From Bacteroidales bacterium (lineage in GTDB: Bacteria > Bacteroidota > Bacteroidia > Bacteroidales > VadinHA17), in contig JANTHB010000035.1 in assembly GCA_024762655.1 (NCBI GenBank), positions 1 to 35,734 on the forward strand: DNA of 35,734 nt, read 5' to 3'. The stretch's first letter is position 1. Every line of letters starts with the position of its first letter. Below the pieces are notes generated by a model. The model did not search any database, was not told where the DNA came from, and worked only from the letters and a program-made list of their open reading frames with translations. Below are positions 1,084-32,401 of the stretch, piece after piece. The position numbers and the translations under genes are program-made.

Positions 1084-2169
1084 CTATCCTCCGAAAGCGT
1101 CGGTATAAATGTTTTTTTCCGGCACTTCTTTTTCTTTCAGTACGTCCAGCACCGCGCGTACGGTTTTTGTAGGTCCTGCGACATAAGCATCCCAGTGTTT
1201 CAGAACGGTTGGTTCCTTTGCCAAAGCATCATATACGGTACCCTGGCGGAATATAATTCCTTTGGGAGCATTGAATCCGGCAGAAACGGTTCGGGCGGTA
1301 AGAACGATCTTCATATCCGGATTTTTCTCTTTCCACTCCTGTAATTTTTCCAGACGGAAGAAATCGGAAGTATCGGTGACCCCCCAATACACCATCATCA
1401 TTCTGGATGGATTGAATTCGATTTGTTGCTCGATCATCGCTTTGATCGGAGCAAAACCGGTTCCTCTTCCCACGAACAGCAAGGGTTTGTCCGGAGGGGA
1501 TTTCAGCCAGAAATTACCCATAGGGCCGATACCGATCAGTTCATCGCTTTCTTTCATCTCTTCGAAAGCCCAGGTAGTAAAGCGGCCCCCCTCCACTCTG
1601 CGCAGGTCCACTTCAAAACTACCATCCGAACGGGGAGCGCTGCCTATGGAATAGGCTCTGGCGGTCCATTCCCTGTCGGGTATGCGAAGGGCCATATACT
1701 GCCCCGGGGTGAACTGACAGGTACAGTCTGCCTCTGTTTTCGGCCGTAAAGTAATAATCATATTTTTTTCATTAATTTTCTCAATGGAAGATACGATCAG
1801 GTGTTTGCTCTTTTCTTCATCCGGGATACTATCCCTCCAGAAAAGCTGTTCTTTACGCTCTACCAGCTCATCTTCCACATGATGATGGGTTTCCGCTTTA
1901 CTTAAAAGGCCGGCTACATAGTCCAGAGGAGGGAAGCTGATAGCATGCTCCGGACAGGTATTGGCACAGGTAGTGCAGCCCACCAGACAATTCAGCGGGT
2001 CGGCAACCACCGCTTTGTTTTTGGAATAATCGAAACGATATACCAACCGGCTGCAGCCGGTTACGCAGGTTCCGCAGCCTATGCAGGCATTTTCGTCAAT
2101 GGTGGGATGCCAATCGATCTCTTCTCTTGGTATCCCGTGCCACGGTTTGGTGAATCTTGGATCAGGCAT
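1084..2169 (-). CDS. Ferredoxin-FNR fusion oxidoreductase (2x[4Fe-4S] + FAD/NAD(P))
   Basis: A 361-residue soluble electron-transfer flavoprotein. The N-terminal part has two cysteine clusters, C29-C32-C35-C39 and C61-C65-C68-C72, the second with an extra residue in its first spacing (C-x3-C-x2-C-x3-CP). From about residue 120 it is a ferredoxin-NADP reductase-like module: RAYS (171-174) for FAD, GRGTGFAP (234-241) for the nicotinamide nucleotide, and an aromatic C-terminus. It probably moves electrons between NAD(P)H and an unknown partner. The start is supported by a strong ribosome site (AATAAGGAGGA, 8 nt spacing). Its N-terminus (WHGI...W-x-P...CIGC) closely matches the ferredoxin at 16032-16700, which suggests a shared partner or pathway. 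The substrate is not known. Confidence 0.9.
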   Translation of the reverse strand: MPDPRFTKPWHGIPREEIDWHPTIDENACIGCGTCVTGCSRLVYRFDYSKNKAVVADPLNCLVGCTTCANTCPEHAISFPPLDYVAGLLSKAETHHHVEDELVERKEQLFWRDSIPDEEKSKHLIVSSIEKINEKNMIITLRPKTEADCTCQFTPGQYMALRIPDREWTARAYSIGSAPRSDGSFEVDLRRVEGGRFTTWAFEEMKESDELIGIGPMGNFWLKSPPDKPLLFVGRGTGFAPIKAMIEQQIEFNPSRMMMVYWGVTDTSDFFRLEKLQEWKEKNPDMKIVLTARTVSAGFNAPKGIIFRQGTVYDALAKEPTVLKHWDAYVAGPTKTVRAVLDVLKEKEVPEKNIYTDAFGG

Positions 2170-2268: not shown

Positions 2269-2841
2269 TTACTCTTCCATCCACGGCCACATCCGGGCTT
2301 CCAGGCTCGTTGGATAGCGGTCACGGATCTCCTGCATTACCTTCCGGAAAGCTTTGTTATCGCGTGCAGACAGGTACACGGCCTGCCCTTTTTTCAGGAG
2401 CAGTGCGGAAGCCCTGCCGTTGCCGGGGAAAAGTTTCACCCCCTCATCCATGATCTTGATGGTTTCCCGGTATTTCCCTCTCGGGATGAGGTAGGCTGCC
2501 TGAAACAACCGGAGTTGTACCCTGAAATCTTCGACAGGTAAAAATCCTTCGAAAAAATCAAAACTGCGTCCCGAATGGTCCAGTACATAAAACGAAGGGG
2601 TCCATACGGCCGAATATTTCCGCCTGATCTCCCGGTCTTCAAGGATATCGAGTTGCAGCGGAATAAACCGCTCCGTTAACTCCCGGGTCACTACCGGATC
2701 CGGATAAACGGTTTCGTAGGTTTTATGACATCCCGAACATTTGTCCCGGTGGAACTGCAAAAATACCGGTTTGCGTTCCTTCCGGGAACGCTCCAGCGCT
2801 TCTTCATAATCAAATGTCCATAGTCTCCAGTCGGTTTCCAT
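2269..2841 (-). CDS. Thioredoxin-fold protein with CSGC active site
   Basis: A 190-residue protein without a signal peptide, so probably cytoplasmic. The first ~110 residues look like a thioredoxin fold: FLQFHRDKCSGCHK carries a CxxC at about residues 35-38 and WTPSFYVLD supplies the expected cis-proline region. The remaining ~80 residues are charged and helical, TPR-like in appearance. It resembles the thioredoxin-like proteins annotated near DUF255 families, but the exact family is uncertain. It sits between an SBF permease and the ferredoxin-FNR gene on the same strand, which suggests a reductant or thiol-exchange role in the same stress response. Confidence 0.75.
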   Translation of the reverse strand: METDWRLWTFDYEEALERSRKERKPVFLQFHRDKCSGCHKTYETVYPDPVVTRELTERFIPLQLDILEDREIRRKYSAVWTPSFYVLDHSGRSFDFFEGFLPVEDFRVQLRLFQAAYLIPRGKYRETIKIMDEGVKLFPGNGRASALLLKKGQAVYLSARDNKAFRKVMQEIRDRYPTSLEARMWPWMEE

Positions 2842-2904: not shown

Positions 2905-3897
2905 TTATCCGCTTGTCCCTGTAACGGCAGGAGATGTTTTCATTTTATAATACCATTTATAATATATGGACGCCAAAGGCATCTGAAACAGGGAGCAGGC
3001 AACTACCCCAAGTAATGCCTGCGGGCCGAAAGCCGTAACAGCCAGTGCCATGGCAATGGACAGGTTTTTTGTTGCCGTTCCGTAGATCAGCGGTATCGCT
3101 TTCACATACGGCATCCTCAACACCTTAAAAGTAAAAACCCCGGCAAGATAAAAGGTGACGACATAATAAACCAAGGCTGCCAGAGCCGGCAGATATATGA
3201 TGCCGGGATGCTGCATGATCTGTTTGGCTTTTATACCGGTAGCGATGAAGACCAACAGCAGGGCAAAGATACCGGAGATCAGCTGAAAATAGGGCATGGA
3301 ATTTACAATGCCTTTTTCTCCCTTTTTCGTAGTGATCAGCTTTCGTGTGATCATACCAAGTATCAGGGGCCCTACAATAATGATCATCAGGTTCTTCAGC
3401 ATAGTCAGATATTGTATGGGCACATAAGCTCCTGCCAGGATCTTCATTCCGAAAGGGATCCAGAAGATGCTGACGATAAAAGTCACGATCTGCAGTACCA
3501 TGGCCAGCGATATCTCGGCATCCAGGATACCGGTCCAGAACGTGATCATGCCTCCCGGAGGCACCACCCCGGCAAGTAATAAGCCGGCCAGTACTTCAGG
3601 ATGAGCACTGACAAATAACCGGGCTTCGGGCCACATGAGCAGGGGGGCTATCACCAGACTTAACAGCAGGCCCCAAAGCAACTCCTTCGGATATTTGACA
3701 GTATTTACCAGGTCATGCATCTTCAGGGGAATGCACATCATATAGATCAGAATGAAAGAAGAAGGCATAATCAGTTTCTTTAAAAAAGGTCCCGATTTCG
3801 GAAATGCCAGTCCGAAAAGAAATCCGCCGAATAACGCTACCAGCGTCCACCAAGTAAGATTCTTCCTGAATCCCTGCGCTATTTTTCTGATATCCAT
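2905..3897 (-). CDS. SBF/BASS-fold permease, arsenic-resistance-protein-like (copy 1)
   Basis: A 330-residue polytopic inner-membrane protein with about ten hydrophobic segments. Two landmarks match the bile acid:sodium symporter/arsenical-resistance superfamily: VVPPGGMITFW (about residues 110-120) and the crossover-like ATKNLSIAMALAV (about 280-292). It lacks the ARC-x-A-M-V motif of true Acr3, which is present at 29404-30444, so the substrate need not be arsenite. It is clearly paralogous to the permease at 4398-5381. An AAGGAG site precedes the ATG. It follows a UspA gene by 12 bp, repeating a UspA-permease pair arrangement. Confidence 0.85.
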   Translation of the reverse strand: MDIRKIAQGFRKNLTWWTLVALFGGFLFGLAFPKSGPFLKKLIMPSSFILIYMMCIPLKMHDLVNTVKYPKELLWGLLLSLVIAPLLMWPEARLFVSAHPEVLAGLLLAGVVPPGGMITFWTGILDAEISLAMVLQIVTFIVSIFWIPFGMKILAGAYVPIQYLTMLKNLMIIIVGPLILGMITRKLITTKKGEKGIVNSMPYFQLISGIFALLLVFIATGIKAKQIMQHPGIIYLPALAALVYYVVTFYLAGVFTFKVLRMPYVKAIPLIYGTATKNLSIAMALAVTAFGPQALLGVVACSLFQMPLASIYYKWYYKMKTSPAVTGTSG

Positions 3898-3909
3898 TTT
3901 TCTCCTTTT

Positions 3910-4365
3910 TTATTTAACAACCAAAACCGATATCGGGGAAAGTTCCACCACGTGTCTGACGGTACTACCCATAAAATAACCTCTTAGCGTACTCTCGCCG
4001 GTATAACCCAGTACAATAAGACTGGCGTGTACCTGTTCAGCTGCCGTACAGATTTGTTTGGAAGCCACACCCTGTTCAATCAGAATGCTGGCCTTAAAAC
4101 CCAGTTTCCTGAGCTCGGCTTCCTTTTCCTTGAGCTTACCGTAAACCTTTTCCAGGATCTTTTTTACAGCATGTTCCTTTGCTTCGCCGGCGGGTGTCAG
4201 TTCAATCTGTTCCTGTATTTCCCAGTACTGGTTAATTTTTCTTTCCTCAATGATGTGAACGATGACCACTTCTTTTGTACCGGCTTCTTTCAGTTTCTTG
4301 ACATATTCATAAGCTTTTTCAGCATTTTGGCTGAAATCGGTCGGATAAATAATTTTTGAATACAT
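3910..4365 (-). CDS. Universal stress protein UspA family (copy 1)
   Basis: A 151-residue single-domain Usp. The N-terminus (KIIYPTDFS) is the usual first strand, and the C-terminus has the ATP-binding pattern G-x2-G-x9-G-S-T (GYTG...MGSTVRHV) followed by SPISVLVVK, so it is of the nucleotide-binding class. It is more like the Usp at 5883 than the one at 5419: both share the QYW/EYW...AKEHAVKKILEK stretch. It lies 12 bp before the SBF permease copy 1 and 32 bp after copy 2. A role in gating or sensing for the permeases is inferred only from this pairing. Confidence 0.92.
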   Translation of the reverse strand: MYSKIIYPTDFSQNAEKAYEYVKKLKEAGTKEVVIVHIIEERKINQYWEIQEQIELTPAGEAKEHAVKKILEKVYGKLKEKEAELRKLGFKASILIEQGVASKQICTAAEQVHASLIVLGYTGESTLRGYFMGSTVRHVVELSPISVLVVK

Positions 4366-4397
4366 AGATGTTCCTTTCTTTATTAATTATTTATTTA

Positions 4398-5381
4398 TTA
4401 AAGTTTGTTTTTTGCTTTGTATTTCAATAGATGCTTATAATACAATGAGGCAACAGGCATCTGAAAAATAGCGGCACCTACAATGCCCAGTAAAGCTTTC
4501 GGACCGAAAGCAACGACAGCTACTGCCATGGCAATGGATAAGTTTTTGGTTCCGGTAGCATAAATGATAGGGACTGCCTTATCAAATTTGATCTTCAATG
4601 TCTTAAGTGCAAACCATCCGGTAAACAGGAATGTTGTCACATAGTAAATAAGTGCAACGATGGCAGGCAATATTATGATCATTGGACTTTTCAGTATAAC
4701 CTTTGATTGCAATGCCAGCGCAATAAAAACGATCAATAAAGCACTTACACCGGAAATGATAGAAAACAATGGCCTCAGATAAATATGTACCCTGAGGTTC
4801 TTTTTTATTTTAATAAGGGTAAAGTGTGTAATGCCCCCCATGATCAGCGGGGCGATGATGAGAATAACAATTTTCTCAATAAGAAACAGGAAATCGATAG
4901 TGACTTTGGCGCCTTCCATCAGTTGCATCCCCAAAGGAATCCAGATAATGCTTAAGAGAAGAGCACTCATTTCTACCATCAAAGCGAGTGAGACATCTGC
5001 GTTTAATACGCCGGCCCAGAAAGCAGTCAACCCGCCCGGGGGGACCAGTACAGCCAGTAAAATACCGGCTAATAACAGTGTTTCTCCTTTAAAAAAAAAT
5101 ATAGATCCTAACGGCCACATAATGATCGGTGCAATAATCAGGCTCATCCCCAGGGCAATAAGAAGCTCTTTGGGTTTTTTGAACACATCAACCAGTGCAT
5201 CGATCCGTAAAGGAATACACATCATATAGATCATTACAAACGATACCGGAAAAATCCACGATTTGAGAGATTGAGCGGTATGAGGTTTCCAAAGCCCGAA
5301 TCCGAACCCTAAAAACAGCATCAGGATGATCCACACTGGTAAAGATTGCTTGAATTTCTTATCAAATGAAGCTAATGTCAT
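4398..5381 (-). CDS. SBF/BASS-fold permease, arsenic-resistance-protein-like (copy 2)
   Basis: A 327-residue multi-spanning transporter paralogous along its whole length to the protein at 2905-3897. Shared landmarks are MIYMMCIPL near residue 55, VLVPPGGLTAFWAG around 110, and GTKNLSIAMAVAVVAFGP around 280. No ARC-x-A-M motif of Acr3 is present, so arsenite transport is only a possibility. The leader AATAAGGAGGAAATTAAG fixes the start. It follows the Usp at 5419 by 37 bp, the same Usp-then-permease order as copy 1, which points to duplication of a two-gene cassette. Confidence 0.85.
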   Translation of the reverse strand: MTLASFDKKFKQSLPVWIILMLFLGFGFGLWKPHTAQSLKSWIFPVSFVMIYMMCIPLRIDALVDVFKKPKELLIALGMSLIIAPIIMWPLGSIFFFKGETLLLAGILLAVLVPPGGLTAFWAGVLNADVSLALMVEMSALLLSIIWIPLGMQLMEGAKVTIDFLFLIEKIVILIIAPLIMGGITHFTLIKIKKNLRVHIYLRPLFSIISGVSALLIVFIALALQSKVILKSPMIIILPAIVALIYYVTTFLFTGWFALKTLKIKFDKAVPIIYATGTKNLSIAMAVAVVAFGPKALLGIVGAAIFQMPVASLYYKHLLKYKAKNKL

Positions 5382-5399
5382 CTTAATTTCCTCCTTATT
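5382..5399 (-). promoter_or_regulatory. Strong Shine-Dalgarno leader, near-identical to that at 18657
   Basis: On the minus strand the leader reads AATAAGGAGGAAATTAAG before the ATG at 5381. Seventeen of 18 bases are identical to the leader of the SPW gene at 18656, although the genes are unrelated. The purine-rich core is a near-perfect anti-SD match. Confidence 0.7.
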
Positions 5400-5418
5400 A
5401 TTTTAATCATTCGTTACT

Positions 5419-5877
5419 TTACTTTACTACCAAAACGGAAACGGGCGATAGTTCCACCACATGACGTACCGTGCTGCCCATGAAATATCCTTTCAGCAGA
5501 CTTTCCCCCGTATATCCCAGTACAATGAGGTCTGCCTTCACTTGTTTGGCAGCAGCACATATCTGTTGAGAGGCAACCCCCTCTTCCACCAGGATACTTG
5601 CTTTTACTCCCATTGTCTTTAATTCATCCTCAATCTTTTGCAGTTTTGGATAAATCTGCTCCAGGAGCAGTTTTACGGCATCTTCGGCTTCGATCATCCC
5701 TTCGGTGGAGGCTTCCATTTGTTCACGGAGTTGTTTATACTCCAGGATTTTACGTTTCTCGATGATGTGGGTGATGACTACTTCCGCATTTCCTGCACAT
5801 TTGAGTTGTTTCACATACTCAAATGCTTTTTCAGCATTTTTACTGAAATCCGTAGGATAGAGAATTTTTGTGAACAT
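5419..5877 (-). CDS. Universal stress protein UspA family (copy 2)
   Basis: A 152-residue single-domain Usp with KILYPTDFS at the start and the nucleotide-binding pattern GYTGESLLKGYFMGSTVRHV near the end. It is the most divergent of the three neighbouring Usp proteins (KQLREQMEAST in place of the YW segment). Its ATG lies 5 bp past the stop of the Usp at 5883, so the two are probably co-transcribed and possibly translationally coupled. No clear ribosome site is visible. It precedes SBF permease copy 2. Confidence 0.92.
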   Translation of the reverse strand: MFTKILYPTDFSKNAEKAFEYVKQLKCAGNAEVVITHIIEKRKILEYKQLREQMEASTEGMIEAEDAVKLLLEQIYPKLQKIEDELKTMGVKASILVEEGVASQQICAAAKQVKADLIVLGYTGESLLKGYFMGSTVRHVVELSPVSVLVVK

Positions 5878-5882
5878 AGTTT

Positions 5883-6347
5883 TTATTTTTTCTTGACCAC
5901 CAAAACCGAAACCGGGGATAATTCGACTACATGTCTGACCGTACTTCCCATAAAAAATCCATGTAACGGGCTGGTACCGGTGTACCCTAAAACGATCAGG
6001 GACACATTCATTTGTTCGGCAGCTTTACAGATTTGTCTGGATGCTACCTTAGCTTGTTCCACCAGAATACTGGCTTTTAATCCCATTTTCTGAAGCTCCT
6101 TTTCCTTTGCTTTTAGTTGATCATATGTTTTTTCCAGGATCTTTTTAACCGCATGTTCTTTGGCCACTCCGGGTGTCCCTCCGTTGATCTGCATCTGCAC
6201 ATCCCAATATTCATTGATTTTTCGATCTTCAATGATATGTGTAATAACGACCTCTTCAGTCCCGGCTTCTTTCAGTTTTTTGACATACTCGTAAGCAATC
6301 TCTGCATTCTCGCTGAAATCCGTCGGATAAAGAATTTTTTTATACAT
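5883..6347 (-). CDS. Universal stress protein UspA family (copy 3)
   Basis: A 154-residue Usp. A longer reading frame opens upstream at 6380, but the ATG at 6347 is preferred because CGGAGGA lies just before it and the protein then begins MYKKILYPTDFS like its paralogues. The C-terminal GYTG...GFFMGSTVRHV fits the ATP-binding class. One extra residue (EQAKVAS against EQGVAS) distinguishes it. It is the first Usp in the beta-barrel-led operon and has no permease of its own directly behind it. Confidence 0.92.
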   Translation of the reverse strand: MYKKILYPTDFSENAEIAYEYVKKLKEAGTEEVVITHIIEDRKINEYWDVQMQINGGTPGVAKEHAVKKILEKTYDQLKAKEKELQKMGLKASILVEQAKVASRQICKAAEQMNVSLIVLGYTGTSPLHGFFMGSTVRHVVELSPVSVLVVKKK

Positions 6348-6388: not shown

Positions 6389-7294
6389 TTAAAAAAGATA
6401 GTATAATCCCACCCAGGTTCCAATGGTACTGTCAAAAGTCATTTTACTGGTTAAAGTTACCGGAACCGCCAACTGAACGAGAAAAGTCTGTGCAAGCCGG
6501 TATTGGGCTCCCGGGATCACCTGAAACTGATGGAAGTCTGATTCAGGGATCGCCGAACCTTCTTTAATGTTTTCCCATCCCTTTTTATATACAAGCGAGG
6601 CCTCGCCGATAAACCGTTTACTTGCATTATAGGCTGTGGTCCAGGAGAATTGCATGATATCTCCCAGGTTGATTCCTTCTTTATTTTTGCTTCGCATGAT
6701 ATAAAAAGCAGACCATCGCATATCCCATTTGCCAAATTCTTTCTCGGGCAATACCGCCAGACCGGCATCGAAAGAACCGGTCCCAAGGGGAAGCTCATCG
6801 GTAGCCAGGTTATGGGACTTTCCCACAGGAGATTTGGTGTAGAGTAACAGAGAAGTGAGGAACTTCTGTTCCTGGTTGTGATGAAACTTCCAGAGCAATG
6901 CTCCCACAACATCTCCTAATCCTGCTCCGGTTTTGGTAACATCCGGGGTAGTCATCTCTTTGCTGACAAATGGAATGTTCAGGATGGCAGTCAGTTTTGG
7001 GATTATCCCATACCGGACTTTTGCAATGACGGTGTTGGATGAAAAGTTCATGTTGTCAGGCATGGGGATCATTTCACCACTGCCGGTATCCAGTTTTTGA
7101 TCAAAAAACGGATGAATCCAGTACCCCCGGATGATCCAAAAGCCTTTAGGCAGGGTTTTAGCCGGTATCCCAAAAATAGGAGGGCGTGGTGTTGGCATCT
7201 TTTTTGCATTTGTATTATCCTGCGCCAGGACGACGCTCCCCTGAAAAAGAAATGCTGCGGTCAAAAACAGGGATAAATATTTTTTAGTTTTCAT
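6389..7294 (-). CDS. Outer-membrane beta-barrel, transporter-like (MetA-pathway type)
   Basis: A 301-residue protein with a clear Sec signal peptide (cleavage likely after VVLAQ), then alternating short amphipathic strands and a C-terminal YYLF, typical of an outer-membrane barrel. Features such as FGIPAKTLPKGFWIIRGY and GAGLGDVVGALLWKF resemble the transporter-like barrels annotated 'phenol MetA degradation' family. It leads the Usp/permease operon, with an inverted repeat in its promoter region. A role in moving small molecules across the outer membrane is inferred. A similar barrel, also next to a Usp, occurs at 27844-28776. Confidence 0.75.
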   Translation of the reverse strand: MKTKKYLSLFLTAAFLFQGSVVLAQDNTNAKKMPTPRPPIFGIPAKTLPKGFWIIRGYWIHPFFDQKLDTGSGEMIPMPDNMNFSSNTVIAKVRYGIIPKLTAILNIPFVSKEMTTPDVTKTGAGLGDVVGALLWKFHHNQEQKFLTSLLLYTKSPVGKSHNLATDELPLGTGSFDAGLAVLPEKEFGKWDMRWSAFYIMRSKNKEGINLGDIMQFSWTTAYNASKRFIGEASLVYKKGWENIKEGSAIPESDFHQFQVIPGAQYRLAQTFLVQLAVPVTLTSKMTFDSTIGTWVGLYYLF

Positions 7295-7383: not shown

Positions 7384-7803
7384 TTAGTCGGTACGTTCGT
7401 AAGCCAGGTTCTTTAATATTCCATCGAGGAAATCACGGACAATGTCATCGATCATGATCTGATCGGTAAGAATGACCTCAAGACCTGTGCGTCTGAAGCT
7501 TTCATAAGCTCCCTGGCCCATCCCTCCTGCCACCAGCACCTGGCAGTCTCCGATTTCATCAGCCATGGAGGCATGTTTCCGGTCGGCATCCCGGCCATAG
7601 CCGTGCCTGCCGGATGAATTTCCGGCGTCTGTTTCAGCAGCATGGGCATGTTGCCGGTTAGCGGCAAAATGACCGGTACCTCTTTCCCTCAGTTCGGTAT
7701 TTACGATTTTATTATTTTCGATCGTGTAAATCTTGTAATACGGAGACCGGCCGAAATGCTGGCTTATGGTTTCTCCGTCAAGGGTCACAATGGCTATTTT
7801 CAT
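7384..7803 (-). CDS. NifX/NafY-type dinitrogenase iron-molybdenum cofactor family protein
   Basis: A 139-residue protein. MKIAIVTLDGETISQHFGRSPYYKIYTIE is the standard opening of the NifX/NifB C-terminal family, and VLVAGGMGQGAYESFRRTGLEVILTD is the conserved second half. Between them lies a His- and Asp-rich linker of about 35 residues with HAHAAE and GRHGYGR, which could bind metal. No nitrogenase genes are visible. Members outside nif clusters are of unknown function, often near redox or metal genes. It lies 40 bp after an arsR and is probably co-transcribed with it. Confidence 0.85.
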   Translation of the reverse strand: MKIAIVTLDGETISQHFGRSPYYKIYTIENNKIVNTELRERGTGHFAANRQHAHAAETDAGNSSGRHGYGRDADRKHASMADEIGDCQVLVAGGMGQGAYESFRRTGLEVILTDQIMIDDIVRDFLDGILKNLAYERTD

Positions 7804-7843: not shown

Positions 7844-8191
7844 TCAATCAATTTTTCCAAGGTTCCATTTATACAGGTCGGTAATTATTTCCCTGGCAAT
7901 GTCCCACATTTCCAGAACCCGCTTATCAGCAATTGAGAAGAACAAAACATTTCCTTCCTTTCTCACCGCAATGATTCTGAAATTACGCATCATCCTTAAA
8001 TGCCTGGATATGACAGAAGGATCAAGATGAAGCTGCTTTGTGATTTCCAACGAGCTTTTTTCCCCTTCTTTCAATAATCTTAATATTTCCAAACGCTGGT
8101 CACTGGCCAGTACCTTGAAAAGCCTGCTACAGGGATTGGAATGCTCATCCGACCCGCATTTCCCTTTAATATGTTTTTTTCTTCCATACAT
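7844..8191 (-). CDS. ArsR/SmtB-family repressor 1
   Basis: A 115-residue winged-helix regulator. KVLASDQRLEILRLLKEGEKSSLEITKQLHLDPSVISRHLRMM is the helix-turn-helix core (about residues 26-70), followed by the beta-wing (VRKEGNVLFFSIADK). Two cysteines lie near the N-terminus (C13 and C22 in KGKCGSDEHSNPC) and could form part of a metal(loid) site; no classical ELCVCDL motif is present. It is followed by the NifX-like gene. Degenerate copies of the TTGCA-N6-TGCAA operator lie just upstream, which suggests autoregulation. Confidence 0.9.
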   Translation of the reverse strand: MYGRKKHIKGKCGSDEHSNPCSRLFKVLASDQRLEILRLLKEGEKSSLEITKQLHLDPSVISRHLRMMRNFRIIAVRKEGNVLFFSIADKRVLEMWDIAREIITDLYKWNLGKID

Positions 8192-8382: not shown

Positions 8383-8850
8383 TTATGCTTCGGATTTCTG
8401 TTTTTCTTTCTCCATCAGTTCCTGTATGTCCCGTATGATCTTTTCGCTGACTTTCAGCATGGTTTCCTGAGCGAATTCGGCCGGCTGCGGGTGTTTTTCC
8501 AGGCCGAAGTCTTCATCCAGCGCATAGGACAGATGAACGGTCATGCCTGCTTTCTCAAGGGTTTTGGCCAGACATCGGTCGGAACACCCGTCGATGGTTA
8601 TGTTATAATCATCATGCAGTAACACCTGTGAAGGTCCTTCCACTTCGGGGTAAAATGCCAAAGGACATCGCATAAAAGCATTCGGGATCTTATTGCGGAT
8701 CTCCCGGGCCAGAAACCCGGTCATCTGCCCCAGGTCAGAACTGCCGAAGCACCCGTTTACACTGATCGTTTTTCCGAACTTCTCATGACCTCCGAGGATG
8801 GCTTTTTTGGCACTCGGAGATTCGATCTCTTCAATATTTTTCTTCTTCAT
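8383..8850 (-). CDS. DGC-domain putative zinc-binding protein
   Basis: A 155-residue cytoplasmic protein. It contains the family-naming motif DGCSDRCLAKTLE (about residues 87-99) plus further cysteines in NGCFGSSD (about 33) and MRCPL (about 61), the four-cysteine pattern proposed to bind zinc. The last 25 residues are highly charged. The biochemical role of the family is unknown. It is the last gene before a terminator in an operon with an osmC and a CDF metal exporter, so a metal or thiol function is reasonable but unproven. Confidence 0.8.
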   Translation of the reverse strand: MKKKNIEEIESPSAKKAILGGHEKFGKTISVNGCFGSSDLGQMTGFLAREIRNKIPNAFMRCPLAFYPEVEGPSQVLLHDDYNITIDGCSDRCLAKTLEKAGMTVHLSYALDEDFGLEKHPQPAEFAQETMLKVSEKIIRDIQELMEKEKQKSEA

Positions 8851-9444: not shown

Positions 9445-10326
9445 TTACACGATAAGGGTTTTTTTATGGTTTTTACTTAACTCCGGTTGAATGTTTACAT
9501 GGGTGATCCCATCCTCCTGCAGGAGATCTTCGATACGGGTAACCAAAGTGTCAAAATAGCTGACGGGGACATCCTCCTCCATTTCCACATGTGCTTCGAA
9601 AAGAATATCATGATCATCAAGTTGCCAGACATGCATGTGATGGACATTTTTGACTTTTTCCAGGGACGATATTTTTTCTGCGATCTGTTTTATGTCAATG
9701 GATTTCGGAGTAAATTCCATAAAGATCCGTACCGAAGCTTCAAAGATATCCCAGCTGGCATATAAGAGATAAGAAGCAATGGCCAGCGTCAGAACCGGGT
9801 CAAGCCAGTACCAGGCCAGATACCTGATGGCCACACCCCCCAGCAATACGGCCACGGAGGTGAGCATGTCGGTAAACAAATGCAGGAAGGCAGAACGCAT
9901 GTTCATACTATTTCCGGCTTCTTTTTTTATCAACAACACACCGATCCCGTTCAACAGGATGCTTATGGTAGCCAATGCGATCACCATGTTCCCTTCCACC
10001 GGAACAGGGTGTATCAATCTGCCGATAGCTTCTATGATCAGAATGACGGAAATGATGATCAGTGTAACCGAATTGATAAAACCGGCAAAGATCTCGGCAC
10101 GCCGGTACCCGAAAGTATGCTTATAAGTGTGACTCTTCCCGGAAAGTTTTTTCGCAATATAACTAATGATCAGGGAGAGGACGTCGCTGAAGTTGTGCAT
10201 AGCATCTGACAACAGTGCCATACTGCCGGAAATGATCCCACCGGACAGTTCTGCCAGGGTGATAAGCAAATTAAGGCTAACTGTAATCCCGATATTTTTG
10301 GTAGAATGATGATGTTGATGTGACAT
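9445..10326 (-). CDS. Cation diffusion facilitator (CzcD/ZitB-like) metal exporter
   Basis: A 293-residue inner-membrane antiporter with six hydrophobic segments and a cytoplasmic C-terminal domain of about 80 residues. The metal site is visible: H44-x3-D48 in TM2 (DAMHNFSD) and H-x3-D in TM5 (HLFTDM). The N-terminus begins MSHQHHH, a short His cluster common in zinc exporters. Family members exchange Zn, Cd or Co for protons. It lies 18 bp after the arsR 2 gene, so regulation by that repressor is likely. Confidence 0.95.
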   Translation of the reverse strand: MSHQHHHSTKNIGITVSLNLLITLAELSGGIISGSMALLSDAMHNFSDVLSLIISYIAKKLSGKSHTYKHTFGYRRAEIFAGFINSVTLIIISVILIIEAIGRLIHPVPVEGNMVIALATISILLNGIGVLLIKKEAGNSMNMRSAFLHLFTDMLTSVAVLLGGVAIRYLAWYWLDPVLTLAIASYLLYASWDIFEASVRIFMEFTPKSIDIKQIAEKISSLEKVKNVHHMHVWQLDDHDILFEAHVEMEEDVPVSYFDTLVTRIEDLLQEDGITHVNIQPELSKNHKKTLIV

Positions 10327-10343
10327 TTTTCTAATATACAGGA

Positions 10344-10679
10344 TTATACTTCACAGGTATCGTTGAAAATGGGTGTGTTGAAAAGGGTGGCAAACAACGT
10401 TCCGGCTTTCTCCCAGTTTTCCTTATTGATACAATATCTGACCTTGGGAGGATTGATCTCCCCTTCAATCAGTCCGGCATCCCTGAGTTCTCTGATATGT
10501 TGGGATACCGTTGACTGGGCCAGCGGCAGAAAATCCACCAGATCGCCGGTAAAGCAGTAAGATTGTTGTGCCAGATAACGGATAATTTTGATCCGCGTGG
10601 GGTGAGAGAGCGCTTTTGCGATCCTCGCAACCTCCTCGGTATCTTTGTTGTAATCAATAATTGCTGTGGTTCGTTTCAT
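10344..10679 (-). CDS. arsR: ArsR/SmtB-family repressor 2
   Basis: A 111-residue winged-helix repressor. An upstream in-frame ATG at 10727 exists, but the start at 10679 is preferred: the longer form would run through the operator. Core: AKALSHPTRIKIIRYLAQQ then the recognition helix AQSTVSQHIRELRDAGLI. Three cysteines, C42 (QQSYC), C83 (RYC) and C109 (NDTC), match in position those of ArsR 4 (C41, C82, C109), a possible As(III) site. Its own promoter has the TATCG-N8-CGATA palindrome that also precedes arsE and a ferredoxin, so it probably controls that regulon. Confidence 0.93.
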   Translation of the reverse strand: MKRTTAIIDYNKDTEEVARIAKALSHPTRIKIIRYLAQQSYCFTGDLVDFLPLAQSTVSQHIRELRDAGLIEGEINPPKVRYCINKENWEKAGTLFATLFNTPIFNDTCEV

Positions 10680-10690
10680 TACAATTCTGT

Positions 10691-10710
10691 TTATCGCAAA
10701 TGAACGATAA
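10691..10710. promoter_or_regulatory. Operator TTATCG-N8-CGATAA before arsR 2
   Basis: TATCGCAAATGAACGATA with 6-bp arms if extended (TTATCG/CGATAA), 12-31 bp upstream of the chosen start. It shares 16 of 18 bases with the copies at 15605 and 16789. This fits an autoregulatory ArsR site. Confidence 0.75.
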
Positions 10711-10742
10711 AATATAATATAAACCAAACTTATGTTCCCTTT

Positions 10743-11180
10743 TTATTCATAGAGAAGATTATCAATCACTTCCCTGAACTTTTTGTCAAATTTGTCCGGG
10801 TTGGTAAGGATATACAGGAATCCGTCCCGTGTTAGATCGAATCTTTTGTTCTTTTGCAAGATGATCAGGGCCTGGGTGTTTACACCGGCCTGTTCGGCGG
10901 CTGACCGTGAACTCTTCTTTTCAATGTTATAGACCCTGAATGTAATCAGTCCCGAGGAAAGATATTCGGTATAGACCTGTTTCAGAATGGTCCTGGCTTC
11001 TTCTTCCAGGGAGAGACAGGTCTGACAACGATGGGTGAAATGAAAATAATACACATGTATGGTGTCGGTGGTCAGGTAAATGATCGTATCTGTCTGTGGG
11101 AGAGCCCGGAAAGCATTCATGCAGAAAATAACCATGATAAGCAGGCCGGGAACCAAAGCCGTTTTTGTCTTTAGCAACAT
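10743..11180 (-). CDS. ArsF-like thiol protein (second copy)
   Basis: A 145-residue exported protein: a hydrophobic N-terminal segment (about residues 8-25) precedes a thioredoxin-like domain with VYYFHFTHRCQTCLSLE, giving a C52-x2-C55 pair. It is a paralogue of the ArsF at 14828 (IYSFHFTRRCITCLQLE), with the same GLITF, QALII and GFLYI landmarks. ArsF is known from arsEFG operons as a subunit needed to reduce nitro-aromatic arsenicals. Here the copy lies at the far end of the same operon, without an adjacent arsE or arsG. A partner role with the thioredoxin lipoprotein is possible. Confidence 0.75.
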   Translation of the reverse strand: MLLKTKTALVPGLLIMVIFCMNAFRALPQTDTIIYLTTDTIHVYYFHFTHRCQTCLSLEEEARTILKQVYTEYLSSGLITFRVYNIEKKSSRSAAEQAGVNTQALIILQKNKRFDLTRDGFLYILTNPDKFDKKFREVIDNLLYE

Positions 11181-11213
11181 AATCCTATGCTTAAGCGGTG
11201 TATGAATGAAAGA

Positions 11214-11495
11214 TCAAAGGTTTTCATCAGGAAATAATTCTTCAATATAAAAAGAGCCGTTGGCATAATTGATGCGTATATTGTCCAGAAGGGGTGCAGC
11301 GTGTTTTTCAAGATAGAAATCCAGGTCACCGATGGCCACTACCACATCCCCTTCCTGCGGATGCGGTTCAATGCTCAGTTGTGCTTTGGGGCTGCAGCAA
11401 CCCGGGATCAGCATGACACGAATGCCCGATGTGCTGAGATCGTTGGTGTCGAGTATTTGTCGGAATTGGCGTAAAGCCGGTTCGGTAACTCTCAT
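11214..11495 (-). CDS. HesB/IscA-like small protein with a Cys-Cys pair
   Basis: A 93-residue protein with the fold pattern of A-type iron-sulfur proteins: VTEPALRQFRQIL, then IRVMLIPGCCSPKAQL, then GDLDFYLEKHAAPLLDNIRINY. The usual first cysteine is here a vicinal pair C33-C34, and the C-terminal CGC motif of IscA/ErpA is absent (ends SFYIEELFPDENL). It is therefore unlikely to be a standard cluster carrier. HesB-like proteins of this reduced kind have no settled role. A vicinal thiol pair in an arsenical operon invites an As(III)-binding hypothesis, which is inference only. Confidence 0.75.
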   Translation of the reverse strand: MRVTEPALRQFRQILDTNDLSTSGIRVMLIPGCCSPKAQLSIEPHPQEGDVVVAIGDLDFYLEKHAAPLLDNIRINYANGSFYIEELFPDENL

Positions 11496-11524
11496 GGTAA
11501 AATTATTTTTGAACAGGTTAATAG

Positions 11525-11962
11525 CTATTTTACTCCTTTTATCTGAAGTATCCTGATCAGGTCTTCTTGCGGAAAATACCCTACATGACGATAAAATTCT
11601 TTTCCATCTTTATCCAGAAAAACCTGGGTAGGAATTACGTTGATTTTGAACTTATCTGCAAAAGGGGCACCATCTTTGGTCCAGACATCATAAAAAATCA
11701 CCTTTACCTGGTTTTTGTACTTTGTCCGGATGGAATCCATGATAGGTTGCATCCGCTGGCAGGGTATGCAACGTACCGATCCCAGCTCAATAAAAGTTAC
11801 TTTATAACTCTTCTTTTCTACGTGTTTTTTCTTTTGCGGTTTTTCGGATGTTGACGGTGTTTTGCCCTGTGCTTTGCTGTGGGGCTGATGGCAACTTACG
11901 GCAGGTATAAACACCAGCAGCAGAAAGAGCGGCAATCCGTTCAATAAATTTGATTTTTTCAT
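11525..11962 (-). CDS. Thioredoxin-family lipoprotein
   Basis: A 145-residue protein with a lipoprotein signal (hydrophobic run, lipobox AVSC, lipidated C24), a Lys/Ser/Pro-rich linker to about residue 50 and a thioredoxin domain. The active site is C65-x2-C68 in SVRCIPCQRMQP, with a cis-proline in VIPTQVFLD. It would act on the periplasmic side, reducing disulfides or metalloid-thiol adducts. In this operon it is a plausible periplasmic electron donor to the two exported ArsF-like proteins, receiving electrons through the CcdA-like ArsG. That chain is an inference from gene content. Confidence 0.88.
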   Translation of the reverse strand: MKKSNLLNGLPLFLLLVFIPAVSCHQPHSKAQGKTPSTSEKPQKKKHVEKKSYKVTFIELGSVRCIPCQRMQPIMDSIRTKYKNQVKVIFYDVWTKDGAPFADKFKINVIPTQVFLDKDGKEFYRHVGYFPQEDLIRILQIKGVK

Positions 11963-11982
11963 GAGGATACGGGTTTTAAGGG

Positions 11983-12780
11983 TTATTTTTCTTTTTCTTT
12001 CATTTTCTGATATAGCTTTCCGATAACTTCCCGGTAAAAGGATTTTATCTTTTCACTGTGGTGTACCAGCGGATGAAAAGGGATCAGATCCATAACTTCT
12101 TCATAGCTGAGGTCAGACTCAAGCAATATTTCCACACTGCCTTTGACCATGGCAGCAATGGCCTTACGGGCTTCTTCTTCCGTCAGTCCCATTTCGACGG
12201 CAAGGTTCAGCAATTCATGGAACTGAAACCAGAAATAAGTCGGGCCCATGCCGGTAATGAGCGCGTAGGCTTCCAGCTTATCTTCCGAAGTTTCCGCCAG
12301 ATGACCGAAATGTTTCATCAGCCGGATAAAAGAGCGGTGTTTTTCATTGTCTTTCTCACATCCGGAGAGAGCAATGAGATTGTAGCCCTTTCTTATCACG
12401 GAAGGTGCATTCGGGATGACTCTGACCACACAGCATTTATTGCCAATGAACTCCCTGATCTTTGCTATGGGGAAAGAGGGTGCCAGGGAAACAATGATAC
12501 ATTGTTCGGTTGCAGCAGGACGGATATCTTCCAGAACCTTTTGCATGTTTTGCGGATGCACGGCCAAAAAGATCACATCGCATCCTCCGGCCACCCGGTT
12601 GTCTGAAACGGTCTGGACGTGTGGAAATTCAGCTTTTACTTTCTGCAACTTTTCCGGTCCCGGATCACTGACAACCACCTTTTCAAACGCCGGAAGTTCC
12701 TCTTTCAGGGCATGCAGGAAAATACGTGTGATCCTTCCCCCACCGATAAAGCCTATCGTTTTTATGGTTTTTGTTTTCAT
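11983..12780 (-). CDS. ProC-like NAD(P)-dependent dehydrogenase
   Basis: A 265-residue protein of the pyrroline-5-carboxylate reductase superfamily. The N-terminal Rossmann motif is IGFIGGGRIT (about residues 9-18) and VVSDP, FLAVHPQNM and VRVIPNAPS follow as in ProC. The dimerisation domain starts at ITGMGPTYFWFQFHELL, where ProC has SGSGPAY; the altered substrate loop raises doubt that proline is the product. It is embedded in the arsEFG operon between the permease and the thioredoxin lipoprotein, unusual for a housekeeping enzyme. Recruitment to another imine or carbonyl substrate is possible. Confidence 0.8.
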   Translation of the reverse strand: MKTKTIKTIGFIGGGRITRIFLHALKEELPAFEKVVVSDPGPEKLQKVKAEFPHVQTVSDNRVAGGCDVIFLAVHPQNMQKVLEDIRPAATEQCIIVSLAPSFPIAKIREFIGNKCCVVRVIPNAPSVIRKGYNLIALSGCEKDNEKHRSFIRLMKHFGHLAETSEDKLEAYALITGMGPTYFWFQFHELLNLAVEMGLTEEEARKAIAAMVKGSVEILLESDLSYEEVMDLIPFHPLVHHSEKIKSFYREVIGKLYQKMKEKEK

Positions 12781-12794
12781 GATGTTATATATTT

Positions 12795-14105
12795 TTAAAT
12801 GGCTCCGAAAATCAATCCGCAGATGGTAGCCATAACCACGACCAGTGAGACATAAATAATGGTTTTTTTAGTCCCCATTACGTTGCGTATCACCAGCATA
12901 TTGGGCAGTGACAACGAGGGCCCGGCCAGCAGCAAGGCCAGGGCAGGGCCTTTCCCCATACCGGAGGCGATCAGTCCTTGCAGGATCGGTACTTCGGTCA
13001 GGGTGGCAAAATACATGAAAGCTCCGGTAATGGAAGCAAAGAAATTTGAAAATACGGAATTGCCTCCGACAAACATCACGATCCATTGTTCGGGAATTAT
13101 CCCGGAGAGATGGACCTGATCATGGGTACTCCCCAGCAGAAAACCGGCAATAATAACTCCCAGAGCCAGCATCGGAAAGATTTGTTTCATGAAATCCCAC
13201 GAAGAAAGGGTCCAGTCCATGTTTTCACCACCGGACAGGAGAGTGATTATTGCCAGCATAACAATTGCTGTTGCCACCGGAACCAGTGGACTGGTAAAAA
13301 CAAAAGCACTGATGGTGGTTATGATCAACGCAATTACCACGTATCCCCATTTGATCTTTAATATCCTGACCAACGACCAGGCCAGCAGCAAACCGAAGAA
13401 AGCGGTGATATGCCATTTATGGAACCAGAGAGAATACCAGGTTCCCGAGGAAACTCCCTCCCCGGGTTTTCCCCAGTTGGCAAAGACCAGGATAAAGACG
13501 AGAACAAAAAAATGAAAAGCGGTTTGCCAAAGCGGCCGGGGCTCTTCTATGGCTGTCACGTTCATTTGCTCTTCCGCTTTTACCTTTTCTTCTTTCCGGT
13601 AAATAAGCGACATAATGCTGCCGATGAGTATGGCAAAAACCACGGCACCGATGACACGTGCCAGTCCGATCTCCCATCCCAGGATGCGGGCCGTGAGAAT
13701 GATCGCCAGGATATTGATGGCCGGGCCGGAATACAGAAAGGCAATGGCCGGACCCAGACCGGCACCCCTTTTGTAAATGCTTGAAAACAGAGGCAGAATG
13801 GTGCATGAACAGACTGCCAGGATTGTGCCTGAAACGGCCGCTACCGAATAAGCTACCCATTTTTTTGCCTGGGCCCCAAAATATTTGATCACCGAAGCCT
13901 GGCTGATAAATACAGCAATTACCCCGGCAATAAAAAACGCCGGCAGCAGACACAGGATCACATGTTCCCTCGCATACCATTGGGTGAGGTCAAAGGTGGC
14001 CGTAATCGCTTCTTTGACCCTTGCATGGTCAAAAGGAACAAAAAAAGCAAACAAAAAGAAAAACGTCATCCAAAACAGAATCCTGATCTCTTTCTTCCAA
14101 TCCAT
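12795..14105 (-). CDS. ArsP/DUF318-type permease
   Basis: A 436-residue inner-membrane protein in two homologous halves. Each half has the permease signature: LAVCSCTILPLFSSIYKRGAGLGPAIAFLYSGPAINI (with C99 and C101) and GMGKGPALALLLAGPSLSLPNMLVIR near the C-terminus, separated by a charged cytoplasmic loop (about residues 165-190). ArsP members export trivalent organoarsenicals; other members of this large family have unknown substrates. Its place just after arsG supports an arsenical role. The second half has lost the cysteines, which is seen in the family but could shift substrate choice. Confidence 0.82.
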   Translation of the reverse strand: MDWKKEIRILFWMTFFFLFAFFVPFDHARVKEAITATFDLTQWYAREHVILCLLPAFFIAGVIAVFISQASVIKYFGAQAKKWVAYSVAAVSGTILAVCSCTILPLFSSIYKRGAGLGPAIAFLYSGPAINILAIILTARILGWEIGLARVIGAVVFAILIGSIMSLIYRKEEKVKAEEQMNVTAIEEPRPLWQTAFHFFVLVFILVFANWGKPGEGVSSGTWYSLWFHKWHITAFFGLLLAWSLVRILKIKWGYVVIALIITTISAFVFTSPLVPVATAIVMLAIITLLSGGENMDWTLSSWDFMKQIFPMLALGVIIAGFLLGSTHDQVHLSGIIPEQWIVMFVGGNSVFSNFFASITGAFMYFATLTEVPILQGLIASGMGKGPALALLLAGPSLSLPNMLVIRNVMGTKKTIIYVSLVVVMATICGLIFGAI

Positions 14106-14126
14106 ATCCCGTGTATTAATTCGTAT

Positions 14127-14825
14127 TTATATCCAGGTTATAAGTATATAGTATATGCCTACAGCAATGAAAAGAGCCGATACAACACGCCGGAACCACA
14201 GCTCGAAGATCTTTACCTTATTATATATGTTTCCGATGCCCTCCATGGTATATGCCACGATCCAGGCAAAGATGATCACGGGGAGACCTGTGGCAATGGC
14301 AAAGACCAGGGGCAGGTACAACCCTTTGGCACTGGCTACGGTCATGGGTACCAACATGCCAAAGTAAAGTACCCCGCTGTAAGGACAGAAAGCGAGAGCA
14401 AAAAGAACCCCCAGCAGCAAAACACCTCCGTATCCTTTATGACCGCTTTTTTCCATACGATCTGTCACGACGCCGAATCCCGGAAGATTAATACGTATCA
14501 GATCGAGCATAAAGATTCCGATCACGATCAATAACGGGCCCAGTATTTTTTCGCCCCACTGTTGGATAAAGCCGGATATTCTGAACTGGCTGGCCCCGAA
14601 GAAAAAAATCAGCCCGATACCTGTATAGGTGATGGCTCTTCCCAGTGTGTAGATCAGCCCGTTCATAAAGACCCGGTCTCTGTTAGAGACATCTTTTCCG
14701 ATAAAAGCAATAGCCGTGATGTTGGTAGCCAAAGGGCACGGACTGATGGAAGTCATTAGCCCCAGAATAAAGGCAGAAATAACCGGCACACGGGCATTCT
14801 CAAGTATTTGTTGCAATACTTCCAT
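14127..14825 (-). CDS. arsG: ArsG-family aromatic arsenical efflux / CcdA-like membrane protein
   Basis: A 232-residue membrane protein with about six TM segments of the CcdA/DsbD core type. The two redox-type motifs are SISPCPLATN (C30) and ALAFCPYSGVLYFGM (C147), the pair expected in this fold. In arsEFG operons ArsG is the membrane component reported to export reduced (trivalent, amino) aromatic arsenicals. It begins 3 bp after the arsF stop, so translation is probably coupled. It could also carry electrons outward like CcdA; both views fit the sequence. Confidence 0.85.
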   Translation of the reverse strand: MEVLQQILENARVPVISAFILGLMTSISPCPLATNITAIAFIGKDVSNRDRVFMNGLIYTLGRAITYTGIGLIFFFGASQFRISGFIQQWGEKILGPLLIVIGIFMLDLIRINLPGFGVVTDRMEKSGHKGYGGVLLLGVLFALAFCPYSGVLYFGMLVPMTVASAKGLYLPLVFAIATGLPVIIFAWIVAYTMEGIGNIYNKVKIFELWFRRVVSALFIAVGIYYILITWI

Positions 14826-14827
14826 AT

Positions 14828-15313
14828 TTACCTGCTGGTTAAAGACTGTTCCAGGTGGTGGTCGATGGCTTCTTTCACCAGATCATGCACTTTCTGCGGT
14901 TGGGTATCGATATAAAGAAAACCTTTGGTTGTCAAATCCGTTATTTTTCTCCCTTGTTGTATCAGCAGTGCCTGCCCCGAAACACGGAGCTTCTCGGCCA
15001 GTTGCTTTCCCTCTTTCTTGTCCAGGTTTATGTCCTGAAAAGTGATCAATCCTTTTTGCACCTGGCCGTTATAACAGGTTTTTAGAATGGATCGTACCGT
15101 ATCTTCCAGTTGCAGGCAGGTGATACACCGGCGTGTAAAGTGAAATGAGTAAATATGGATAATGCTGTCATGGTCCGATATTTCCTGCCGGCCCGGGGTT
15201 TCATGGGATTTATTCTCTGTGTGTGATCGTTGGCAGGAAGTGATAAAAATTGCCAGAAGGATTAAAATGCCCAGGGATATATCTGCAACGGCAGATCGTC
15301 TCTTTCTACGCAT
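14828..15313 (-). CDS. arsF: ArsF-like lipoprotein, nitro-arylarsenical reduction subunit
   Basis: A 161-residue protein with a positively charged start, a hydrophobic stretch and a lipobox-like ITSC (C27). The periplasmic domain has IYSFHFTRRCITCLQLED with C63-x2-C66, then a thioredoxin-like beta-alpha pattern (GLITFQDINLD, QALLIQQG, GFLYIDTQP). ArsF is reported in arsEFG operons to act with ArsE in nitroreduction of arsenicals such as nitarsone. The start overlaps the end of arsE by 8 bp. A second ArsF-like protein lies at 10743. Confidence 0.82.
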   Translation of the reverse strand: MRRKRRSAVADISLGILILLAIFITSCQRSHTENKSHETPGRQEISDHDSIIHIYSFHFTRRCITCLQLEDTVRSILKTCYNGQVQKGLITFQDINLDKKEGKQLAEKLRVSGQALLIQQGRKITDLTTKGFLYIDTQPQKVHDLVKEAIDHHLEQSLTSR

Positions 15314-26999: not shown

Positions 27000-27833
27000 T
27001 TATTGTCCTATGAATACCGGAACACGGTTCTGATCAATAAGATAATTGGTGAATTTGCCTGTGAAAAACTCCTTCACCGGACTTTTGGAATATTTTCCAC
27101 AAATGATCATATCTACGGTATCCAGATAGTCTTTCCCTACGGTTTTACGGAGGGAGTGAGATATCCAACGTTTTGTCACCGGCCTGTTTCCATGATGTGC
27201 CAGATAATCTTCCAGTTTCTCCATTTCTGCCATAGCCGCTTTCTCATCATCGCTTTTGGTTAGGAGAATGATCTCATATTCCATTCCTTTTGTCATGGTT
27301 ACGAAACGTTGTATAGCTTTCATGGATGGGGCACTTGCATCATAGGTCATCAGCACTTTCCGGATGGGTTTATATGTTTTGGGGACGGCAAGCACCGGCG
27401 TGTTAATATATCCGAGAATATCTTTCAGGGAGGTTTCCGGCCGGTTACGGGTCTCAAAATGGAAGAAATTACGTATCCCCATCACGATCAGGTCATTGTA
27501 CAGACTTTCCTTTTCTATGATGAAGTCGGGTCTGCCTTCCATGATCTTTGCCTGACAACGCAGGTTTTCCGCTTTGCATGCTTCTTTGAAATTTATCAGT
27601 TCTTCCTCAACCTTTTTCCGGGCTTTCACCAGCAGATCTTCTTCTTTTTTTATATGCCCTTCTGTCCCCTGAGGCAACGGGAAAAAAGTTACCGCCTGTT
27701 CGACGATATCAAGCACGTCCAGAATGGCAATACCTTCAACGAATGCTTTCTGTAATTTGGAGATTTCAACCACATACTTCCAGGCTGCTTTCGTGTACTC
27801 GGAAGGGTCTATGGGTAATAATATTTTTTTCAT
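27000..27833 (-). CDS. Tandem-domain universal stress protein
   Basis: A 277-residue protein made of two Usp modules. The start at 27833 (MKKILLPIDPSEYTKAAWKY) is chosen; an earlier frame from 27986 reads into the barrel gene and is rejected. The first module ends DILGYINTPVLAVPK, the second begins RKVLMTYDASAPSMKAIQRF and ends LIDQNRVPVFIGQ. The glycine-rich ATP pattern is not evident, so it may not bind ATP like the three short Usps. It begins 10 bp past the end of the beta-barrel gene, repeating a barrel-then-Usp order seen at 5883-7294. Confidence 0.88.
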   Translation of the reverse strand: MKKILLPIDPSEYTKAAWKYVVEISKLQKAFVEGIAILDVLDIVEQAVTFFPLPQGTEGHIKKEEDLLVKARKKVEEELINFKEACKAENLRCQAKIMEGRPDFIIEKESLYNDLIVMGIRNFFHFETRNRPETSLKDILGYINTPVLAVPKTYKPIRKVLMTYDASAPSMKAIQRFVTMTKGMEYEIILLTKSDDEKAAMAEMEKLEDYLAHHGNRPVTKRWISHSLRKTVGKDYLDTVDMIICGKYSKSPVKEFFTGKFTNYLIDQNRVPVFIGQ

Positions 27834-27843
27834 GGGATAAGTA

Positions 27844-28776: not shown

Positions 28777-28965
28777 AAACGATTATGTATGTGAGTATAT
28801 ATTCGCTTGCAAAAATACAATGTTTATCCGAATGAACAAGTGTTTATGATAAATAAAATTATAAAATGAATAATATCAGATATGTAAAGTTTTATATAAT
28901 AAATTTATTCCGGATGAATACTTTTCCCGGCTACCTTAACATGTAAATGAATGCTCACATATGTA

Positions 28966-29382: not shown

Positions 29383-29403
29383 ATGCTATACTGTTTATTT
29401 AGT

Positions 29404-32282: not shown

Positions 32283-32401
32283 CTTAGCCCCTCTTTTCTT
32301 CTGCCGGGGGGATATATTGAGAAAAAAAGCACAACGAATCTTTTTATTTATTACATTTGATAGTTGCAATTCTTCCAGGCCCTCCTAAATCATTTGTTGC
32401 C

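Follow-up and report, generated by a model that had tools for sequence, protein, structure and literature searches.

A putative operon of Usp and Acr3-like permease genes in a candidate ArsR-headed metalloid module of anaerobic Bacteroidota

Usp and permease genes of the locus

We analysed a 35,734-nt stretch of DNA from an anaerobic Bacteroidales bacterium (contig JANTHB010000035.1, positions 1 to 35,734; hereafter the window), which contains five neighbouring genes for universal stress proteins (Usp) and permeases of the SBF superfamily. The open reading frame (ORF) calls place all of them on the minus strand in the transcription order Usp1, Usp2, SBF-B, Usp3 and SBF-A; the order Usp, Usp, permease, Usp, permease given in an earlier note on this DNA is thus borne out by coordinates, strand and Pfam matches. 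All five proteins score above the Pfam thresholds of their family, Usp or SBF, and the intergenic gaps are 5, 37, 32 and 12 bp in order, suggesting a single putative operon. Genomes and loci used for comparison carry G and L numbers.

5883..6347, minus strand: Usp1, universal stress protein, first Usp of the operon (PF00582, E 1.4e-21; motif GYTGTSPLHGFFMGS; 95% identity to the G002 Usp)
5419..5877, minus strand: Usp2, universal stress protein (PF00582, E 7.9e-26; motif present; G001 orthologue 84%)
4398..5381, minus strand: SBF-B, Acr3-like permease of subfamily I, congeneric type by its tree position (PF01758, 76.5 bits; 82% to G001, 70% to G003)
3910..4365, minus strand: Usp3, universal stress protein preceding SBF-A, local type by the approximately unbiased (AU) test (PF00582, E 3e-23; 91% to G001 Usp3)
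2905..3897, minus strand: SBF-A, Acr3-like permease of subfamily I, Melioribacteraceae type, probably acquired, as judged by tree and AU test (PF01758, 93.7 bits; 78% to the L021 permease; ASBT-like fold)

The three Usps belong to the universal stress protein family by their PF00582 scores and by the motif G-2x-G-9x-G(S/T), which all three carry as G-2x-G-9x-GS, in line with the earlier claim that the ATP-binding motif is kept. In profile comparison they match the ATP-binding protein MJ0577 and TeaD (3hgm), and the sequence features together suggest that they bind adenine nucleotides. The Usps share 68-75% identity with Usp3 but no more than about 51% with those of the L021 module, which lies in a Melioribacteraceae genome of another class; by these identities the three are local duplicates. 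The host genome contains 11 Usp domains.

Both permeases are SBF proteins, with PF01758 scores of 93.7 (SBF-A) and 76.5 bits (SBF-B) at a Pfam cut-off of 24.3. The equivalog cut-off of the ACR3 model TIGR00832 (282.8) is not reached by either of them (77.1 and 83.4 bits for the two), whereas a true Acr3 in L021 scores 458. The permeases of a second subfamily, SBF-II, found in sister modules and about 32% identical to SBF-A, likewise stay under this cut-off despite a cysteine at the Acr3 position. By the NCBIfam cut-off, therefore, SBF-A, SBF-B and SBF-II are Acr3-like, and none is an Acr3.

The cysteine in transmembrane helix 4 (TM4) of Acr3 is essential for As(III) transport. At the aligned column SBF-A and SBF-B both have Pro, confirming the earlier observation that the permeases lack this cysteine, and Ser stands at the column of the Acr3 TM9 glutamate. 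A true Acr3 encoded in the same window (29404-30444) has both residues. On score and residues, the two SBFs are thus ruled out as true Acr3 proteins. A different cysteine, Cys55 (MCIPL), is invariant across subfamily I.

An AF2 model of SBF-A, modest in quality (predicted local distance difference test score, pLDDT, 65.7; built from seven sequences), has the ASBT fold. Its fourth and ninth helices are broken as in ASBT, and it matches ASBT structures with Z 22-26 (Z ~25 for ASBT_NM and YfASBT, 3zux and 4n7w) and, far below these, SbtA with Z 11.9. Identity to ASBT_NM and YfASBT is, however, only about 20%, and the TIGR00841 cut-off is not reached. The Na+-site columns were located by aligning the SBFs to the genome's own BASS protein, itself aligned to 3zuy; at these columns the ASBT residues (SN in TM4, E and Q in TM9) are replaced, Lys277 taking the Q position. 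Score and replaced residues rule out the window SBFs as Na+ BASS symporters. Because Lys277 occupies the sodium-site position, Na+-independent anion transport or proton coupling is suggested. The same lysine is present in SBF-II.

Separate origins of the two permeases

SBF-A shares 78% identity with the L021 permease from a Melioribacteraceae genome, against only 48% with SBF-B. Maximum-likelihood trees place SBF-A with the permeases of Melioribacteraceae and SBF-B with those of the host genus. Under the AU test, a sister relationship of the two window permeases is rejected (p=0.00016), and so is a group joining Usp3 to the Usps found beside SBF-A orthologues (p=0.0014); rejection is weaker (p=0.02) for a single group of all four permeases of the host genus. 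According to these trees, SBF-A and SBF-B are old separate lineages. Since trees and AU tests separate both the two permeases and Usp3, one permease (SBF-A) probably came from outside and landed behind an already duplicated local Usp.

The earlier note had described the locus as a duplicated cassette. The repeated Usp-SBF order and the 68-75% identity of the Usp copies would suit duplication of the pair as a unit in this genome, yet the closer relationship of SBF-A to another class and both AU rejections make this extremely improbable. Local duplication of the whole cassette is ruled out by trees and AU tests, the latter refuting it for the SBFs; only the Usps are local duplicates. The pairs are therefore of independent origin in part, with SBFs from old separate lineages and Usps multiplied in place.

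The SBF was found in three of seven genomes of the host genus and in no other genome among the 40 relatives sampled; among 146 genomes of the other order, two have the close type. Such a patchy distribution fits horizontal transfer. At third codon positions, the GC content (GC3) of SBF-A is 0.57, compared with 0.43-0.45 in SBF-B and the Usps. Since the other genes of the window span 0.45-0.62, a range that includes the SBF-A value, this difference does not prove transfer.

A larger module shared across two lineages

The Usp and SBF genes are part of a conserved unit with the order ArsR - (NifX) - outer-membrane protein (OMP) - Usp - SBF - DGC - ferredoxin/FNR (- thioredoxin). We found it whole, or cut by a contig end, in four genomes of the host genus and in six of another family, the Melioribacteraceae. 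The window has every part, its diverged DGC gene being placed upstream of ArsR. Besides the five genes listed above, the parts in the window are:

8383..8850, minus strand: DGC-domain protein with four conserved cysteines (PF08859), diverged by alignment (~33% to other module DGCs)
7844..8191, minus strand: ArsR/SmtB-type regulator with Cys12 and Cys21 (NF033788, above cut-off)
7384..7803, minus strand: NifX-like protein (PF02579; counterparts in the G002 and G527 modules)
6389..7294, minus strand: module OMP, a PF13557 relative, module-specific, adjoining Usp/SBF in every module locus that reaches that far
2269..2841, minus strand: thioredoxin-like protein (52% to an L136 ORF; relative in the G1066 module)
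1084..2169, minus strand: ferredoxin-FNR type reductase at the downstream end of the module (relatives in the G003, 87%, G527, 42%, and G1066 modules)

Gene order elsewhere is ArsR - OMP - Usp - SBF-B - DGC - ferredoxin/FNR in G003, ArsR - NifX - small gene - ArsR - OMP - Usp - SBF - DGC - ferredoxin/FNR in G527, and ArsR - OMP - Usp - SBF - DGC - Usp in G434 (L021). Three relatives (G557, G543 and G1066; loci L057, L058 and L136) have the same module with a different permease, SBF-II with its Acr3-position cysteine: ArsR - OMP - SBF-II - DGC - Usp - Usp in G557 and G543 (the G543 ArsR cut at the contig end) and ArsR - OMP - SBF-II - DGC - Usp - ferredoxin/FNR - Usp - thioredoxin in G1066. By gene content, the permease is thus swapped within a conserved ArsR-OMP-DGC-Usp set. 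Contig ends cut the modules of G002 (ArsR - NifX - OMP - Usp), G001 (OMP - Usp - Usp - SBF-B - Usp) and G541 (ArsR - OMP - SBF start). The G002 contig (end of L044) and the G001 contig (start of L045) break at Usp genes, probably due to near-identical Usp repeats, and the absence of an SBF in G002 is uncertain.

The module OMP had no match besides this window in a sample of 395 genomes of the phylum; among 79 Melioribacteraceae genomes it matched in six, every time at a module locus. On this distribution the protein is specific to the module. The DGC proteins share four invariant cysteines in alignment. A search for DGC on plasmids gave no match, and literature searches found nothing relevant linking DGC to arsenic or ArsR, or on 'TsoR', the name of an ArsR model for which the match stayed under the cut-off.

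A Usp is encoded in all eight module loci that extend past the permease (the window, G001, G003, G434, G527, G557, G543 and G1066), and it is the direct upstream neighbour of 6/6 subfamily I permeases. Since the module loci share ancestry, 8/8 is not an independent sample; counted by the two permease subfamilies and the re-formed Usp3/SBF-A pair, these sequences represent two or three separate associations. To place the linkage against a background, flanks of 1.5 kb were scanned with a Usp model that also recovers a held-out haloarchaeal Usp. No Usp was found near 30 SBF loci or near 30 Acr3 loci of the order, the two sets overlapping and the SBF set comprising only the best-scoring loci, mostly of Acr3 type. 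Nor was one found near any of 14 distant Acr3-like loci, eight of which were viewed over ~10-14 kb. Usp linkage as a general property of SBF/Acr3 loci in the order is therefore unsupported. At three distant Acr3-like loci of one Bacteroidota family (L061, L062 and L067), the SBF gene is divergent from OsmC-like and predicted DNA-binding genes, with no Usp nearby.

The gene neighbourhoods place Usp/SBF clustering above chance, given a total of 11 Usp domains in the genome, a sampled background without any Usp and the recurrence of the arrangement in genomes of another class. The non-random linkage proposed in the earlier note therefore stands, carried by two lineages of different classes and two SBF subfamilies, whereas its idea of co-duplicated pairs does not. 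In absolute terms adjacency is rare: a motif scan of ~85,000 species genomes, which needs near-exact peptides and can miss diverged members, found only three other close loci. A possible separate Usp-SBF association lies on a Halorubrum megaplasmid (L047:4774-6903), where a Usp gene in the opposite orientation, a DUF302 gene and an Acr3-like SBF gene are adjacent.

Candidate function and rival explanations

The interpretation that we favour, to which we assign an even chance, is that a rare metalloid detoxification module of arsenic type, headed by ArsR and spread horizontally in anaerobic Bacteroidota, is present here in an expanded copy. With the same evenly balanced confidence, the gene content can be read as a variant ars operon that would export a metalloid, with the Usp as a nucleotide-binding accessory. 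The sequences show the gene content, its recurrence, the discordant histories and the residue patterns; substrate, transport direction, accessory roles and Usp-permease contact are what we infer in the following scheme. A thiophilic metalloid would release ArsR and allow expression of the operon; the SBF permease would carry the metalloid, free or bound to thiol or sulfide, out across the inner membrane, and the module OMP would let it pass outward. DGC and the redox proteins may deal with thiol chemistry, the NifX-like and thioredoxin-like genes being frequent extras, and the Usp would be a cytosolic adenine-nucleotide-binding accessory tuning the permease to the energy or stress state. In the host genome the module includes both permeases, which differ in origin, and the three Usps that duplicated locally.

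An ArsR-family regulator in the operon, above the NF033788 cut-off, is as expected of an ars operon, and KICVCE, with the arsenite-type CVC motif, is present in four of five readable Melioribacteraceae module ArsRs. Besides its true Acr3, the window has genes for an ArsP-like permease and an ArsC-like LMWPc protein. Recurrence of the module with a constant Usp also speaks for this reading, as do published uspA genes of ars clusters and their induction by arsenite (PMC6620896). A thiophilic metalloid is indicated because of the ArsR, the SBF-II cysteine, the CVC of the relatives, the four-cysteine DGC and the Acr3, ArsC-like and ArsP-like genes of the window. Several observations weigh against this interpretation: the Pro and Ser at the Acr3 positions of both window permeases; a window ArsR without CVC, having Cys12/Cys21 instead; TauE and OsmC neighbours in L021 and L058, which would suit sulfur chemistry too; and a fair AF2 model of the DGC protein (pLDDT 82.8) for which a PDB fold search gave no match below E 0.001.

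The same neighbours, together with the ferredoxin, FNR and thioredoxin partners, would agree with a module that moves a sulfur oxyanion, a persulfide or another anion, its ArsR sensing sulfur species or another metal. Subfamily I, without the Acr3 cysteine and with Lys277 at the Na+-site position of its ASBT relatives, fits this as well, but the CVC of the relatives' ArsRs and the Acr3-position cysteine of SBF-II do not, and we regard it as unlikely. A serious contender, which we judge slightly short of even, is that the Usp is a co-regulated general stress protein, induced by metalloid stress without contacting the permease, its copies arising by local tandem duplication. The uspA genes in ars clusters of Thioalkalivibrio and Exiguobacterium, arsenite-induced, are read in this way (PMC6620896, PMC9671657), and Usp number and position vary between modules; however, a Usp that is fixed in the module and absent from the sampled background SBF/Acr3 loci suggests more than a passenger.

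Compatible with metalloid export, but a stronger claim, is that the Usp is a dedicated gate: an oligomer bound to ATP or another adenine nucleotide would dock on the cytosolic face of the SBF and open or close it, each permease having its own upstream Usp. The 6/6 direct upstream neighbours, the intact nucleotide motif with its profile matches to MJ0577 and TeaD, and the placement of the acquired SBF-A again behind a Usp all favour it. So does the resemblance of the SBF-A model to SbtA, itself bound by the nucleotide sensor of its own operon (PMC8352866), though at Z 11.9 it is well under that to ASBT. In SBF-II modules, however, the Usp lies two genes downstream, unpaired; Usp3 falls outside the Usp lineage of the SBF-A orthologues, leaving no specific co-evolved pair; and the canonical Acr3 of the order functions without a nearby Usp. 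Gating of the permease is plausible by analogy, and the dedicated gate is possible but on the unlikely side. Quite improbable, in our view, is a version in which the permeases, with their invariant Cys55 and Lys277 and their missing Na+ site, form a new Acr3-like class that always needs Usps as nucleotide-sensing subunits, making an energy-gated metalloid exporter whose permeases are swapped while Usp, DGC and OMP are kept.

As in two known systems with a regulator of this kind, TeaD and SbtB, the Usp genes adjoin a transporter gene. TeaD has been proposed to regulate TeaABC in Halomonas elongata (cited in PMC8280820, PMC5549992); it too is a Usp encoded with a transporter, has a nucleotide-binding motif and is matched by our Usps in profile comparison (3hgm), but TeaABC is a TRAP transporter, and the window Usps are putative partners of SBF permeases. 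In cyanobacteria SbtA, of 5+5 ASBT-like topology, is bound by SbtB, a nucleotide sensor from its own operon (PMC8352866); both cases combine an ASBT-like transporter with an adenine-nucleotide-binding protein from one operon. SbtB, however, is PII-like and not a Usp, and SbtA is Na+-dependent, whereas the window SBFs are without the ASBT Na+-site residues. Closest in gene content are the ars/acr3 clusters with uspA of Thioalkalivibrio jannaschii, Alkalilimnicola ehrlichii and Exiguobacterium (PMC6620896, PMC9671657), with induction of uspA by arsenite reported in PMC6620896. As far as the excerpts of these reports go, uspA and an Acr3-family transporter share one cluster, with ArsR in the first two organisms, but the permeases are true Acr3 proteins with the cysteine, unlike the diverged ones of the window, and no module OMP, DGC or ferredoxin/FNR is reported.

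Other parts of the window contain related genes. Positions 9445-15313 encode a CDF cation efflux protein, a second ArsR-type regulator, the ArsP-like permease, a DsbD-like protein and several thioredoxin-like proteins. The true Acr3 locus (27000-30444) has a parallel layout, with Acr3, an OsmC-like ORF (28966-29382, identified by eye), a second OMP (OMP2, 24% identical to the module OMP) and a two-domain Usp; the OMP2-Usp pair and HlyD, ABC-2, TolC, TetR and kinase genes are conserved in G001. A multihaem cytochrome gene (823 aa; 32357-34828) adjoins the arsenic genes.

The earlier proposal of an undescribed transport module of unknown substrate was half right: the unit is larger, ArsR-headed and has arsenic-type marks, and uspA in ars/acr3 clusters had already been reported (PMC6620896, PMC9671657). 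We read the unit as an ars-type module that combines Usp with atypical Acr3-like permeases. The roles of Usps for transporters are poorly understood, and uspA in arsenic clusters has been reported without a mechanism. Its two permease subfamilies also show that one gene set can carry Acr3-like transporters with the textbook cysteine in some genomes and lacking it in others. A small module that keeps its Usp while the permease is exchanged and the Usp copies multiply is a natural system in which to ask if Usps gate SBF-type permeases.

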